64,000 nucleotides of DNA from Candidatus Viadribacter manganicus. Lineage in GTDB: Bacteria; Pseudomonadota; Alphaproteobacteria; Caulobacterales; Aquidulcibacteraceae. Under the pieces are notes generated by a model. The model ran no database searches. It was given only the letters and a program-made list of their open reading frames with translations, and was not told the origin of the DNA. Each line of letters opens with the position of its first letter. The stretch's first letter is position 1. Of this stretch, positions 14,811-51,307 are shown piece after piece. The stretch covers positions 1,116,001 to 1,180,000 of the forward strand of contig NZ_CP013244.1 in assembly GCF_001679665.1 (NCBI RefSeq), read 5' to 3'. Made by a program: the position numbers and the translations under genes.

Positions 14811-15662
14811 ATGAAACTCACCATGGCCCTGGGCGTCGCACTCGCCGCCCTTACAGTGGCGGGCGCCAGCGCTCAATCGAGCACCCGCCACGTCGTGGTT
14901 CGCCACAGCGGCGCCAGCGACGTTAACTTCGACGCCAACAGCGATGGCTGGATCTCACGGGCGGAAGCCTCGGCCGCCTACGAGCGCGTCTTCGCTGATC
15001 TCGACACCAACGACGATGGCAAACTCGACGATGCCGATCACACGCGCATCCACGTCTCGGGCGACGCGCCTGCGGTTCATGTATTCAGAAGCGGCGACGG
15101 CGACCGACGCGAAGTTCGCGTCGTCACCGGCGATCTGAGTGAGGAAGACCAAGCGCGCATCGAGGCGCAAGTCGCCGAAGCCATGGCGCGCGCTGAAGTT
15201 CACGTCGAGCGCGCCGAGCGCGACGCCGAACGCGCCGAACGAGATGCTGAACGAGCCGAGCGCCAGGCCGAACGTATTGAACGCGAAGTGGAACGGGCTG
15301 TGGACCGCGCTGAACGCCAAGCGCACCGAGACGGCGCTCGCGAAGTCGTCGTCGTCCGCGTCGATGGCGACGGCGGCTCATGGACATCGCTTGAAGGCGA
15401 CATGATCGCCCCAATGGCGCCCGTCCCGCCTGCACCACCCGTACCGCCGATCGGGCCGTTCATGATGTTGATCGCGAACTCCGAAGAGGCCGACCTGAAC
15501 GGCGACGGCGCTCTTAGTCTCGAAGAATTCCGCAATCAGCACCTGCGCTTCTTCGACGCCAGCGACGCCAATGGCGATGGCCGGGTTCGCTTTGAAGAGC
15601 CGCCGGCGCCGCCAGAGCCGCCGGCGCCACCTGCTCCGCCCGAGCCTCCGCGTCGCCGCTGA
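14811..15662 (+). CDS. Exported EF-hand calcium-binding protein with central coiled coil and Pro-rich tail
   Basis: A 283-residue exported protein. The signal peptide ends at ASAQ (about 22). Four EF-hand loops are visible: DANSDGWISRAE (41-52), DTNDDGKLDDAD (65-76), DLNGDGALSLEE (228-239) and DANGDGRVRFEE (252-263). Between the pairs lies a charged heptad-like coiled coil (about 110-172) made of repeated ERAERDA units, then a VVVVRVDGDG strand. The tail is a PPAPPEP repeat. The layout coiled coil, short beta strand, Pro-rich stretch is also seen in the periplasmic part of the nearby histidine kinase. It is divergent from the kinase operon. A periplasmic calcium sensor or scaffold is plausible but not shown. 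Confidence 0.85.
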   Translation: MKLTMALGVALAALTVAGASAQSSTRHVVVRHSGASDVNFDANSDGWISRAEASAAYERVFADLDTNDDGKLDDADHTRIHVSGDAPAVHVFRSGDGDRREVRVVTGDLSEEDQARIEAQVAEAMARAEVHVERAERDAERAERDAERAERQAERIEREVERAVDRAERQAHRDGAREVVVVRVDGDGGSWTSLEGDMIAPMAPVPPAPPVPPIGPFMMLIANSEEADLNGDGALSLEEFRNQHLRFFDASDANGDGRVRFEEPPAPPEPPAPPAPPEPPRRR

Positions 15663-15671
15663 GGAACGGGT

Positions 15672-15699
15672 CCGGCCGGGGCCCATCCACCCCGGCCGG
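15672..15699 (+). terminator. Strong hairpin after the EF-hand gene
   Basis: A 10-bp perfect stem CCGGCCGGGG/CCCCGGCCGG with an 8-base loop, ten bases after the stop at 15662. The following AAGCCTTAAC is poor in U, so termination may be partial or Rho-assisted. Confidence 0.55.
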
Positions 15700-15811
15700 A
15701 AGCCTTAACACTTAAACCGTGACCAGAGTCACAGCGTCCGGCGCATCCAAACACTATCTTGGCTGCATCAAAGGTTCAGACGAACCGCAACGCCAATAAG
15801 GGAGCTAGCAA
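15700..15811 (+). promoter_or_regulatory. Leader/promoter region of the first 30-residue peptide gene
   Basis: 112 bases carrying the signals for the first peptide gene. They include a 5-4-5 inverted repeat GTGAC-CAGA-GTCAC at 15719-15732 that could be an operator, and the ribosome site AAGGGAG, spaced 7 bases from the ATG. A -10-like TATCTT lies near 15755 but the -35 is not clear. Confidence 0.4.
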
Positions 15812-15904
15812 ATGTCCAAGTTTTTCTGCCTCGCCGCCGCGCTGGCCTTCTTCACACCGATGGCGTTGGCCACTCTTAATCAAGCTGCTCTGATCGTCGC
15901 CTGA
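15812..15904 (+). CDS. 30-residue exported hydrophobic peptide, copy 1 of 3
   Basis: A very short gene with a good ribosome site. Residues 1-20, MSKFFCLAAALAFFTPMALA, look like a complete Sec signal peptide: Lys near the start, a hydrophobic core, a Pro and an A-L-A end. Cleavage would leave the decapeptide TLNQAALIVA. The same length, the Pro before the cleavage site, and a tail of form QAA..VA recur in two further genes just downstream. The conservation of length, layout and tail across copies, and a separate terminator behind each, are the reasons for calling this a real gene. Function is unknown. It could be a secreted peptide signal, or a small membrane-active peptide of the type I toxin kind if the signal is not cleaved. 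Confidence 0.75.
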   Translation: MSKFFCLAAALAFFTPMALATLNQAALIVA

Positions 15905-15938
15905 TCCCCCAAACCCGCCTGCGACGGTCATAACGGAA

Positions 15939-15970
15939 GGCGCGAACCGCCCTAGGGTTCGCGCCTTTTC
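15939..15970 (+). terminator. Intrinsic terminator of peptide gene 1
   Basis: Perfect 10-bp stem GGCGCGAACC/GGTTCGCGCC with a 7-base loop followed by TTTTC. The stem sequence is nearly repeated behind peptide genes 2 and 3. Confidence 0.85.
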
Positions 15971-15988
15971 CATTTCAAGGATCACAAG

Positions 15989-16015
15989 GCGCGGCGCTTT
16001 TGCTCCGCGCTTTTT
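15989..16015 (+). terminator. Second hairpin with T-run behind peptide gene 1
   Basis: Stem GCGCGG/CCGCGC with a 10-base loop and TTTTT (16011-16015). It follows the first terminator by 20 bases, giving a double stop, or it marks the end of a short non-coding transcript. Confidence 0.6.
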
Positions 16016-16140
16016 GTCTGCACGTTTGCAGCGGCTGCGCTGCGCAAATGCATCGAAGAAAAAATCCATCGCATCGCATCCAAGCGCGCCGCCCTCGGCA
16101 TCTCATAGTCAACAGACACTGAAACACGAGGGAAATTCAC
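16016..16140 (+). promoter_or_regulatory. Leader/promoter region of peptide gene 2
   Basis: Contains GCATCTCATAGTCAACAG at 16098-16115, a motif that returns almost unchanged (GCATCTCTTAGTCAACAG) before peptide gene 3. Ribosome site GAGGGA lies 7 bases before the ATG. The stretch TTTGCAGCG near 16025 also matches the start of the next leader, so the whole module seems duplicated. Confidence 0.5.
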
Positions 16141-16233
16141 ATGACCAAGATTGCCAGTATCGCCGCCGCCTTCGCCCTGTTTGCTCCGGTCGCCGTCGCG
16201 ATCATCGCGCAAGCTGCCCAGATCGTCGCTTAA
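16141..16233 (+). CDS. 30-residue exported hydrophobic peptide, copy 2 of 3
   Basis: Second copy, exactly the same length as copy 1. Residues 1-20 are MTKIASIAAAFALFAPVAVA, a signal-peptide-like stretch ending A-V-A. The remaining ten are IIAQAAQIVA. Compared with the other copies, positions Q24, A25, A26, V29 and A30 are unchanged, while the bases differ at many codon third positions; that fits selection on the peptide. It has its own ribosome site and terminator, so it is probably a separate transcript. Function unknown; see copy 1. Confidence 0.78.
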   Translation: MTKIASIAAAFALFAPVAVAIIAQAAQIVA

Positions 16234-16267
16234 TCCTGCCCACCCTGCAGTGACGATCGCAAACGAA

Positions 16268-16299
16268 GGCGCGGACCCCAAGGTTCGCGCCTTTTGTTT
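16268..16299 (+). terminator. Intrinsic terminator of peptide gene 2
   Basis: 10-bp stem GGCGCGGACC/GGTTCGCGCC (one G-U pair), CCAA loop, followed by TTTTGTTTG. Confidence 0.85.
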
Positions 16300-16406
16300 G
16301 CAACGCTTGCAGCGAAGAAATGCGCGCCCGACGCATCCGCCGAGAGCTTTAACAGCATCTCTTAGTCAACAGGAAAACAACCCGTTCAAATTCGGAAAGT
16401 ACGACA
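16300..16406 (+). promoter_or_regulatory. Leader/promoter region of peptide gene 3
   Basis: Carries GCATCTCTTAGTCAACAG at 16355-16372, matching the motif before peptide gene 2 at 17 of 18 positions. The distance from the motif to the ATG is 34 bases here against 25 in copy 2. The ribosome site is a weaker GGAAAG. Confidence 0.5.
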
Positions 16407-16499
16407 ATGAAAAAGTTTGCCTTTGTCCTTGCAGCCTTCGTGCTCTTCGCGCCGGTCGCGTATGCAGCGCTTTATCAAGCTGCATTGATGGTCGCATAA
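16407..16499 (+). CDS. 30-residue exported hydrophobic peptide, copy 3 of 3
   Basis: Third copy, again 30 residues. Residues 1-20 are MKKFAFVLAAFVLFAPVAYA, the most classical signal peptide of the three (two Lys, hydrophobic core, A-Y-A). The last ten are ALYQAALMVA. LFAPVA before the cut site is shared with copy 2, and LxQAALxVA with copy 1. The following strong terminator also faces the convergent pbpC gene. Function unknown; see copy 1. Confidence 0.78.
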   Translation: MKKFAFVLAAFVLFAPVAYAALYQAALMVA

Positions 16500-16532
16500 T
16501 CCCTCCCCCCCGAGATTGCGACATCAGCTCCA

Positions 16533-16574
16533 GGCGCGGATCGTCCTCGGACGATCCGCGCCTTTCTTTTTTTG
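16533..16574 (+). terminator. Intrinsic terminator of peptide gene 3
   Basis: Long stem starting GGCGCGGATCGTCC and closed by its complement at 16549-16562, followed by TTTCTTTTTTTG. It is the strongest of the set. It abuts the end of convergent pbpC. Confidence 0.9.
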
Positions 16575-16575
16575 C

Positions 16576-18690
16576 TCACCCGCTATCTCGTATGCGGACG
16601 CGCACGTGCGCGCTTTGTCCGTCGGCATCCACCACGGTAACATTGTAGAAACCCGGCGCTGCTGGCCGCCAAATCGTTCGGCCGCTCGTGCTTTCCGCAC
16701 CGACGCGCGCACCCTCGGCATACCAAGTCAGCGGCGCACGTCCCCCGCGCGCCGAAAGCGAAAGCCCGCGCGCATCTGCGCCATAATCCAGCACCAACAC
16801 TTCGGCGCCCGACGGGGGAAACAGGATCGACAAATCCTCGCGTTCACCGCCCTCGAACCGCGCCAGGGCCGGTGCAACTGGATCGTGCTGCTCGCGCTCA
16901 TGTTCAGGCGGCGCCGGTGCACCGATGAGATCGAACGCGTCAAACAAGATCGGCAGCGCCTCGCTGCGGCCTGTTGCACCAGGACGCGGCGCACCATCTG
17001 GACGCCCCACCCAAACGCCGATGGCGTATCCATTCGAAACGCCCAACGCCCACGCGTCGCGAAAACCGTAGGAGGTCCCGGTTTTGAATGCGACCTGCGG
17101 CGCGCCTTGCGCCACCGCCGCCGGCACACGTCCGGCCGGATGGGGAGAGCTCGCCAAGATTTCCAGCACGCGCTCTGCTGTCTGAGGACGAACAAAGCGG
17201 CGGCTGAACGAAAGCCCAGCAGCGTCTTCTGTCACCAACGGCCGCGCATCGCCCTCATCACCGAGCGCCGCGTATAATTGCACCAGATCTTCCAGCGTCA
17301 TGCCGACGCCTCCGAGCGCCAGCGCCAGCCCCGGTTCGGAAATAGCACGCCTCGGCATCCGCACCTGCGCGCCCGCACGCGACAATGCCGCCTGAAAGCG
17401 CCCAGCGCCGATCCGCTCCAAAGTCGCCACCGCCGGCAAATTCAACGAATGCCGCAACGCGTCTTCAAGCGTCACATCACCGTGGAAGCGCCGGTCGAAA
17501 TTCTCAGGCAAATACCCACCGAACCGCCTAGGCGCATCGCGCACCAGGGTTTCCGGCGCCGCGATGTTTTCGTCGAACGCAATCGCATACAAGAACGGCT
17601 TCAACGCGGAACCCGGCGAGCGCACAGCGCGGGTCATGTCGATATAGCCGCCCGCCCGCTCACGCCCCGCGCCGCCGACACGTCCGCGCACGGCGCGCCC
17701 ATCGATCTGCACCGCTAGAATAGAGATCTGCGCATCACGCTCCAGCGCGCCGGCGCTCCGCCGCACCAGCGCCTCCAGATCGCGTTGCAACGTTGCATCA
17801 AGCGACGAGCGAACAACGCCGTCACCAAGATTGCGTTGCACCAATTCATAAGCCGCATGCGGGGCAGAATAGGGAAACGGCGATCGCGCCGGAATCGCGC
17901 CTTCCTTGCCCTCTTCAGCGCGGCGGCGATTAATCAGATGCGCGCTTACGAACATGTCGAGCACACGATCGCGCGATGCTCGCGCTGCTTGCGGGTGGCG
18001 GTCCGGCCGCCTCGCTTCAGGCGCCTGCGGCAACGCGATCAATAGCGCCATCTCGGCATCATCCAGCCACTCAGGATCGCGCTGGAAGTACGCCCGCGAA
18101 GCCGCCCGGACACCCTGAAGATTGCCGCCGTAGGGCGCCATGGTCAGATAAGCCGCGAGAATCTCGCGTTTGGACATGCGTGCTTCAATTTGGATCGCAC
18201 GCAATATCTCGATCAGCTTCGATCCAATCGTGCGCGGGCGCGGCTCCAGCAAACGCGCCAACTGCATCGTGATCGTCGAACCGCCCTGCGTCACGCGCCC
18301 GGCGCGTAGGTAAGAAACGCTGGCGCGCGTGAGGGCGATCGGATCGAACCCTGGATGAAACCAAAAGCGTTCATCTTCGATCGCAATCAGGCGCCTTTGA
18401 AACTCCGGATCAATCTCACCCAGCCGTGCCTCAAGCCGCCAGGCGCCATCGCCGGTCGTGAACGCCATCAGCCATTCGCCGTTGTGATCCAGCACAACCG
18501 GCGAGACCTCCCGCACACGCCGCAAAGGCGGCGCAAAGAGGGCGTCGAGTGTGAACAATGTAAGCACCAGCGCGCCAAACATGCTCGCCCACCGTTTGCC
18601 GGCTTTCGAGAGCGGCAACCCAAGCGTCCGCCCCCTCCTCTTGGGAGGAGGGGGTTGGGGGTTAAGGTGAGGCTCGACGGTCAACGTCAT
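16576..18690 (-). CDS. pbpC: Penicillin-binding protein 1C (glycosyltransferase/transpeptidase)
   Basis: A 704-residue bifunctional peptidoglycan synthase. One N-terminal membrane anchor lies at about 35-55. The GT51 domain has [15 protein letters not shown] and [14 protein letters not shown]. The transpeptidase domain has the SxxK motif in [12 protein letters not shown] in RHSLNLPA and KTG in [13 protein letters not shown]. The C-terminal 90 residues form the BiPBP_C beta domain found in PBP1C. The neighbour is the alpha-2-macroglobulin gene, the standard partner of pbpC in many Gram-negatives. The first 25 codons contain a palindromic GA-rich element also found just outside the gene; the true start might be further downstream (for example the Met at residue 37), though that would shorten the anchor. 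Confidence 0.94.
18631..18654. repeat. GA-rich palindromic element, copy within pbpC 5' end
   Basis: CCCCCTCCTC/GAGGAGGGGG with a 4-base loop. A sister copy is at 18737-18758. Such elements are usually intergenic; here it encodes a PPPPKRRGR stretch near the N-terminus of PBP1C. Confidence 0.65.
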
Positions 18691-51068: not shown

Positions 51069-51109
51069 GGGGCCGTCCCCAATGCTGGAAAGCGCGAGGC
51101 CGTCCTCGC
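51069..51109 (-). promoter_or_regulatory. Guanidine-II riboswitch (mini-ykkC)
   Basis: Read on the minus strand: a first hairpin GCGAGG-ACGG-CCTCGC (51109-51094) and a second GGGG-ACGG-CCCC (51080-51069). Two stem-loops with ACGR loops in tandem are the definition of the mini-ykkC motif, which binds guanidinium in the two loops and frees the ribosome site of the gene behind. The second stem ends about 33 bases before the gdx start and about 20 before its GGAG. It is expected to turn gdx on when guanidine is present. Confidence 0.92.
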
Positions 51110-51307
51110 ATTGGCGATATCGGACATCGGATTTCCCGATCAAGACTCCCACCCATTCGAAGATGGCGCGCAGCGCGGGTCCAGGATCCATAAACACGTT
51201 GGCTTGCAGGCGTAGCGTTCGCCGTTAGTGTTTTTCGCTTACACTGTCGCGTTTATGGGTCCCGGGCCCTTCGCGCGCCGCGAAGCCCCGGGAATGGGTG
51301 GACAAGC
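51110..51307. promoter_or_regulatory. Divergent region between gdx riboswitch and patatin gene
   Basis: Contains an imperfect inverted repeat at 51261-51292: CCCGGG..CTTCGCG then a 3-base loop and CGCGAAG.CCCGGG. It is close to the patatin start and could be an operator or leader hairpin. No further gene is seen in this 198-base stretch. Confidence 0.45.

Follow-up and report, generated by a model that had tools for sequence, protein, structure and literature searches.

The three successive 30-codon frames examined here, in a window that comprises the whole 64,000-nt stretch of DNA analysed from the genome of 'Candidatus Viadribacter manganicus', are, on the evidence of homology and substitution patterns, real genes and part of an extensive, hitherto unnamed family of very small membrane peptides, which occur in one bacterial family of the Caulobacterales in up to 25 copies per genome. 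It is strongly suggested, moreover, that one promoter class of this peptide family, common to many copies and hereafter class A, is controlled by a co-distributed CRP-type protein. Gene families of 30 codons easily escape annotation, and in the present case a whole micropeptide regulon appears legible from sequence, from its promoter and candidate regulator to its mRNA structures and the selection acting on it.

The first-pass annotation had placed three successive 30-codon frames between an EF-hand gene and pbpC, and both coordinates and flanks agree with this: three plus-strand ORFs, each of 30 codons and a stop (Table 1), follow the EF-hand gene (14811-15662, +) and precede a pbpC-type penicillin-binding protein gene (16576-18690, -). 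The lysine, the proline, the A-x-A site, and the five shared tail positions that it described are present as K3, P16, and A18-x-A20 in all three peptides and as identical residues at positions 24, 25, 26, 29, and 30. Each gene also possesses, as claimed, its own ribosome site, a purine-rich stretch 5' of the ATG (GGGAG in gene 1, GAGGGAA in gene 2, and GGAAAG, a weaker site, in gene 3), and its own intrinsic terminator, a GC-rich hairpin with a T run 3' of the stop. The promoter type differs within the trio, gene 1 having a CRP-type box and genes 2 and 3 a GCATCC-N16-GCATCT promoter-like motif.

Table 1. Positions of the three peptide genes and their signals (window coordinates) and of related loci elsewhere in the same genome (CP013244 coordinates, marked "own genome").
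Feature	Position	Strand	Basis
CRP-type palindrome GTGACCAGAGTCACAGCG, class A box of gene 1	15719..15736	+	exact genome pattern, 68-promoter comparison
-10-like hexamer TATCTT, 22 nt past the 14-nt palindrome	15755..15760	+	fixed spacing of TAnnTT in nearly all class A promoters
5' UTR hairpin GGTTC-AGAC-GAACC, gene 1	15773..15786	+	fold; arm covariation across 58 class A leaders
Gene 1, predicted 30-aa membrane peptide MSKFFCLAAALAFFTPMALATLNQAALIVA	15812..15904	+	ORF, homologues, dN/dS
Stop-codon hairpin TGATCGTCGC...GCGACGGTCA, C-rich loop CTGATCCCCCAAACCCGCCT, gene 1	15891..15930	+	fold, covariation
Terminator hairpin, gene 1	15935..15971	+	fold, direct reading
Promoter-like motif GCATCC-N16-GCATCTC before gene 2	16076..16104	+	class B comparison
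Gene 2, predicted 30-aa membrane peptide MTKIASIAAAFALFAPVAVAIIAQAAQIVA	16141..16233	+	ORF, homologues, dN/dS
Stop-codon hairpin GATCGTCGCT...AGTGACGATC, gene 2	16221..16258	+	fold
Terminator hairpin, gene 2	16265..16296	+	fold, direct reading
Promoter-like motif GCATCC-N16-GCATCTC before gene 3	16333..16361	+	class B comparison
Gene 3, predicted 30-aa membrane peptide MKKFAFVLAAFVLFAPVAYAALYQAALMVA	16407..16499	+	ORF, homologues, dN/dS, AlphaFold2
Stop-codon hairpin GTCGCA...TGCGAC, loop TAATCCCTCCCCCCCGAGAT, gene 3	16491..16522	+	fold
Terminator hairpin with T run, gene 3	16532..16573	+	sequence scan
Own genome, pair of copies	597478, 597607	-	
Own genome, candidate regulator gene (outside the window)	661589-662278		
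Own genome, copy	664714	+	
Own genome, pair of copies	2056057, 2056203	-	
Own genome, copy	2733737	+	
Own genome, copy	2813134	+	

Homologues were sought with one peptide as the query and then with a 41-sequence profile. The own genome, a single contig of 3,732,719 bp (CP013244), contains 10 copies at six loci, and the search of close genomes that the first-pass annotation had proposed yielded homologous frames in 29 of 30 congeneric genomes (1-25 copies each, mostly 5 or more) and in four sister genera, namely g8, with peptides in all four of its genomes, and g14, g15, and g16, where divergent members are present. The nine remaining genera sampled in the bacterial family gave no copies, and a drawn sample of 384 other genomes of the class Alphaproteobacteria gave zero matches at E <= 1e-4. 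Weak matches elsewhere in the order, from genus g5 and a small number of further groups, were set aside, as they sit in much longer frames and resemble signal peptides of larger proteins. Among named records, the exact pattern NQAAQIVA-stop was found almost only in Hyphomonadaceae, Caulobacterales, and unclassified alphaproteobacterial MAGs, with one Terricaulis; matches in a Rhodospirillaceae (L093) and a Lactobacillus (L121) record had no family match and were taken as chance. A mobile or phage origin was rejected likewise, tblastn with one family consensus having given nothing in plasmids or phages and the viral-contig pattern search having given 0. The earlier remark that no described family has such a tail held up, for we found no credible relatives in Pfam, NCBIfam, PHROG, PADLOC, or PDB and no description of the peptides in the papers retrieved, although anonymous small-ORF catalogues may contain them.

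An alignment of 155 homologous copies reveals near-invariant residues at K/R3 (153), A10 (154), P16 (148), and A18 (152), together with a tail of Q24 (153), A25 (154), A26 (150), I/M28 (152), and V29 (144), closed by A30 in 139 of 150. Exactly 30 residues are encoded by 128 of the 157 distinct copies, and since most of the longer ones are extended at the N-terminus, the spacing between helix and C-terminus is fixed. Nei-Gojobori counts, made on sequences that are short and non-independent, gave a dN/dS of 0.17-0.19 among orthologues of genes 1-3 and of 0.186 across 889 related pairs; in the latter set the tail reached 0.12 versus 0.23 for residues 1-20, with the coding part of a stop-codon hairpin (see below) also constraining the last codons. 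Non-synonymous changes are thus far fewer than synonymous ones (about 0.18 in the dN/dS test that had been proposed along with the genome search), which indicates that the peptide family evolves under purifying selection and, with the 155 homologous copies, rules out chance ORFs.

Two readings of the product had been offered at the outset, and they did not fare equally. One of them, tandem copies of a small hydrophobic peptide of the membrane, agrees with the hydrophobic stretch at residues 4-22 of the 30-aa peptide and with the AlphaFold2 prediction for the gene 3 product, one helix from residue 2 to 29 (mean pLDDT 93.5). According to the other, signal peptidase I would cut after A18-x-A20 and release the tail (TLNQAAQIVA and kin) as a signal or pheromone-like product. 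Consistent with such a secreted decapeptide, P16, A18, and A/S/G20 compose a textbook site in 138 of the 155 aligned copies, most congeneric copies retain the A-x-A site, and constraint is strongest in the tail of the peptide; the same residues, however, would also suit the uncleaved helix. The other 17 copies have V, T, I, L, N, or P at this position. In the sister genera it is often P or V, neither of which suits signal peptidase I there, and about half of the peptides read have P20 (e.g., MTRFASLIAASFAFALVALPVMSQAAQIVA) and nevertheless keep the box, the -10 element, the length, and the QA[AS]xIV tail. As signal peptidase I does not accept proline before the cut, cleavage at position 20 is not family-wide, and because many sister-genus members no longer have the A-x-A site but retain the QAAxIVA tail, the evidence favours an uncleaved inner-membrane peptide; release of a decapeptide is unlikely as the general fate of the product, even if congeneric copies may be cleaved.

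Class A promoters are carried by window gene 1 and by all dispersed copies, whether single or paired. In 68 distinct leaders their layout runs from GTG[AC]C-N4-G[TG]CAC[AG][GT]CG, or a near variant, through 22 nt to TAnnTT and then, after about 6 nt, usually to ATCG. The pattern GTGACN4GTCACAKCG has five exact matches in the 3.73-Mb genome, each of them in front of a peptide gene, and its reversed control has none; the bare palindrome occurs at 11 genome sites, six of which are peptide loci. If TAnnTT is the -10 element, the centre of the palindrome would fall near -41.5 relative to a predicted start site, which is where activators of the CRP type sit in the class II arrangement.

This palindrome is missing before window genes 2 and 3 and before their relatives, which have in common GCATCC-N16-GCATCT, with an invariant spacer (class B). 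Allowing at most one mismatch, the own genome contains 29 matches to the motif versus 3 in the control. Since it also precedes many ordinary genes, we rejected it as a peptide-specific signal; class B is probably a wider promoter class at the genus level, perhaps one served by an alternative sigma factor. The unrelated genes with the motif 30-220 nt before their starts encode exported proteins, an ABC ATPase, and others (e.g., L146-L149, L153-L154, L163, L169, L171, and L172).

As for the candidate regulator of class A, a PF13545 search listed the Crp-type HTH genes of seven genomes of the bacterial family that have the peptides and of six that do not, and these genes were placed in a tree. 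In one clade (support 100/99) each of the seven positive genomes is represented by a single member and the six negatives by none, and the other CRP-family clades were dismissed as none of them matches the peptide distribution one to one. Across 60 genomes, an orthologue of this regulator (E about 1e-50 or better) and the peptides occur together in 33 and are both missing from 22, the regulator alone occurring in two and the peptides alone in three, which amounts to agreement in 55 of 60 genomes with a Fisher p of 4e-11 that carries no tree correction and is inflated by kinship. Counting genomes at least 90% complete, the figures are 24 with both, 18 with neither, two with the regulator only, and one with the peptides only; by genus, the regulator occurs in five of five peptide-positive versus one of nine negative genera. 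The three genomes with peptides and no regulator (G058, G012, and G030) are all fragmented and two of them incomplete. Two peptide-negative genomes of genus g19 (G048 and G049; L261 and L262) have a regulator homologue of about 50% identity; no class A box lies near it.

The protein combines a cNMP_binding domain (PF00027, E 5e-18) with an HTH_Crp_2 domain (PF13545, E 8e-15), its pocket GEMAVLDGGVRSAD belongs to the type that binds cyclic nucleotides (PF00027), and its nearest solved relatives are Mycobacterium tuberculosis CRP (PDB 3d0s and 3i54). All seven clade members have SREKVNR as the recognition helix. Residues R180, E181, and R185 of E. coli CRP contact the two G-C pairs of TGTGA (PMC11253593), and SREKVNR fits this R180/E181/R185 pattern, which there reads TGTGA-N6-TCACA; two other CRP-family proteins of the own genome (753087 and 3315423) also have an RE...R helix. 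The candidate resembles M. tuberculosis and E. coli CRP in its domains, its RE...R helix, and a GTGA-N6-TCAC type box, but differs from them in that strong box matches in the own genome stand only before peptide genes, so that it has the look of a paralogue with a specialised task and not of a global regulator.

Regulator and peptide genes are also found side by side. In G052 the order is regulator-box-peptide, as direct neighbours 143 nt apart; in the own genome it is regulator-peptidase-box-peptide, with one gene between; and in G043 it is box-peptide-regulator, an arrangement in which the regulator gene, too, would be driven from the box. Beside the regulator of JAD_PAG50586_4 (G062; L253:5492-5670), the class A box, the -10 element, and the TAGCTCCC-loop terminator are kept while the peptide frame between them has decayed. 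The gene intervening in the own genome (L031:4668-6530) encodes an M1 peptidase with a leukotriene A4 hydrolase C-terminal domain and is missing at that place in G052 and G062.

The short mRNAs appear to be structured at both ends. Class A leaders have a hairpin that begins a few nucleotides from the predicted 5' end and whose arms pair better within the same leader than when permuted (z 8.3, n 58). In terminal genes, another hairpin lies over the stop codon, its 5' arm being the last codons and its loop the stop codon plus a C-rich stretch, e.g., GTCGCG-TAGCTCCC-CGCGAC, with the terminator 3' of it; this structure stands out against shuffled 3' sequence (z 18.7) and permuted partners (z 5.7) and is missing from the first genes of pairs (z -2.2). 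The terminator loop of pair operons usually reads [AT]TGCTCCC and is complementary to the Shine-Dalgarno sequence GGAGCA of the first gene (z 8.8 versus shuffled loops). Covariation within the class is lacking (z 1.2), and we dropped this pairing as a covarying long-range contact; self-pairing of the loop with the first-gene Shine-Dalgarno sequence is a possibility.

Toxins of the Ldr, Ibs, and Hok kind have several chromosomal copies and structured mRNAs, and the first-pass annotation had pointed to Ldr and Ibs as a parallel. Type I toxins are hydrophobic peptides of under 60 aa with one predicted membrane helix (PMC8309996). Membrane peptides of this style, silenced by an antisense or base-pairing RNA, would match the present family in their small, hydrophobic, single-helix product, their tandem and dispersed chromosomal copies, their strong RNA structure at the 5' and 3' ends, and the complementarity of the pair-operon terminator loop to the first-gene Shine-Dalgarno sequence. 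Identity with them nevertheless gains no support: the family has no match to any toxin family (Pfam, NCBIfam, PHROG, PADLOC), no PXXXGC motif, and no positively charged C-terminus; no antitoxin was found in the locus scan; an antitoxin gene would hardly fit into the short spacers of pair operons; and the loop match is the one without covariation. Antisense promoters opposite the frames, for which a check had been proposed, did not appear on the minus strand in 15650-16600 in a consensus scan that takes in sigma-70-like sites only. Each class A unit, by contrast with such toxins, has a CRP-type site at an activating position, and we consider the toxin reading very unlikely.

Alternatively, the mRNA itself could act, its C-rich stop-codon loop or its TGCTCCC terminator loop pairing with the Shine-Dalgarno regions of other mRNAs in the manner of VcdRP, AzuCR, and the alphaR8 sRNAs. 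The stop-codon hairpin of terminal genes and the richness of the loops in UCCC are in keeping with this, and a translated small frame is indicated at the sequence level by the dN/dS of 0.17-0.19; VcdRP and AzuCR are likewise CRP-controlled small RNAs (PMC8672173), with frames of 28-29 aa. VcdRP has a cytosine run near its 3' end besides its small frame (PMC8672173). Both RNAs are CRP-repressed. They are, however, not known as multi-copy, whereas the peptide family has up to 25 copies, a site at an activating position, and a putative base-pairing role. The alphaR8 sRNAs (Caulobacter SisA-D) are dispersed paralogous small RNAs of alphaproteobacteria with an anti-Shine-Dalgarno stretch (PMC12559287), a feature of the same type as the loops described here; they differ in being sRNAs with a single-stranded UUUCCUCCCU and unrelated promoters, where the peptide family consists of coding mRNAs with C-rich hairpin loops and a common promoter. 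The core UUUCCUCCCU was absent from the locus sequence on reading, Rfam gave no match at the peptide locus, and the hairpin over the stop codon may serve only mRNA stability or termination, which leaves a dual-function mRNA improbable. Each of the resemblances to type I toxins, dual-function RNAs, and alphaR8 fails or leaves open a defining feature.

The scenario that we prefer, and to which we give an even chance, is a chromosomal regulon of single-span membrane micropeptides with a CRP-type switch for the class A copies. The CRP-family protein, probably in its cyclic-nucleotide-bound form, would activate these copies together, while genes 2 and 3 would answer to another promoter type. Bounded by the 5' hairpin, the stop-codon hairpin, and the terminator, the short mRNAs would be stable and yield a high peptide dose; the peptide, left uncleaved, would insert in the inner membrane as a single helix with its N-terminus inside, and through its conserved C-terminal QAAxIVA it would act on a partner in the membrane. 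With tandem copies the dose would rise and control would be divided between two inputs, copy number setting the dose. Of these elements, we infer the ligand, the activation, the start site, the topology, the partner, and the dose control by copy number. Such a regulon would be a candidate case of a CRP paralogue devoted to such peptides, and it makes the role of tiny membrane proteins, a common problem, directly testable in a culturable bacterium. A bolder version, in which the specialised paralogue governs a dose-tunable set of up to 25 similar membrane micropeptides whose mRNAs have stop-codon and terminator hairpins that are also anti-Shine-Dalgarno riboregulators, is rather unlikely, though if true it would constitute a dedicated second-messenger-to-membrane switch at both the peptide and the RNA level.

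Elsewhere in the window, a Guanidine-II riboswitch (mini-ykkC) at 51069-51111 (-) scored above the Rfam gathering threshold.
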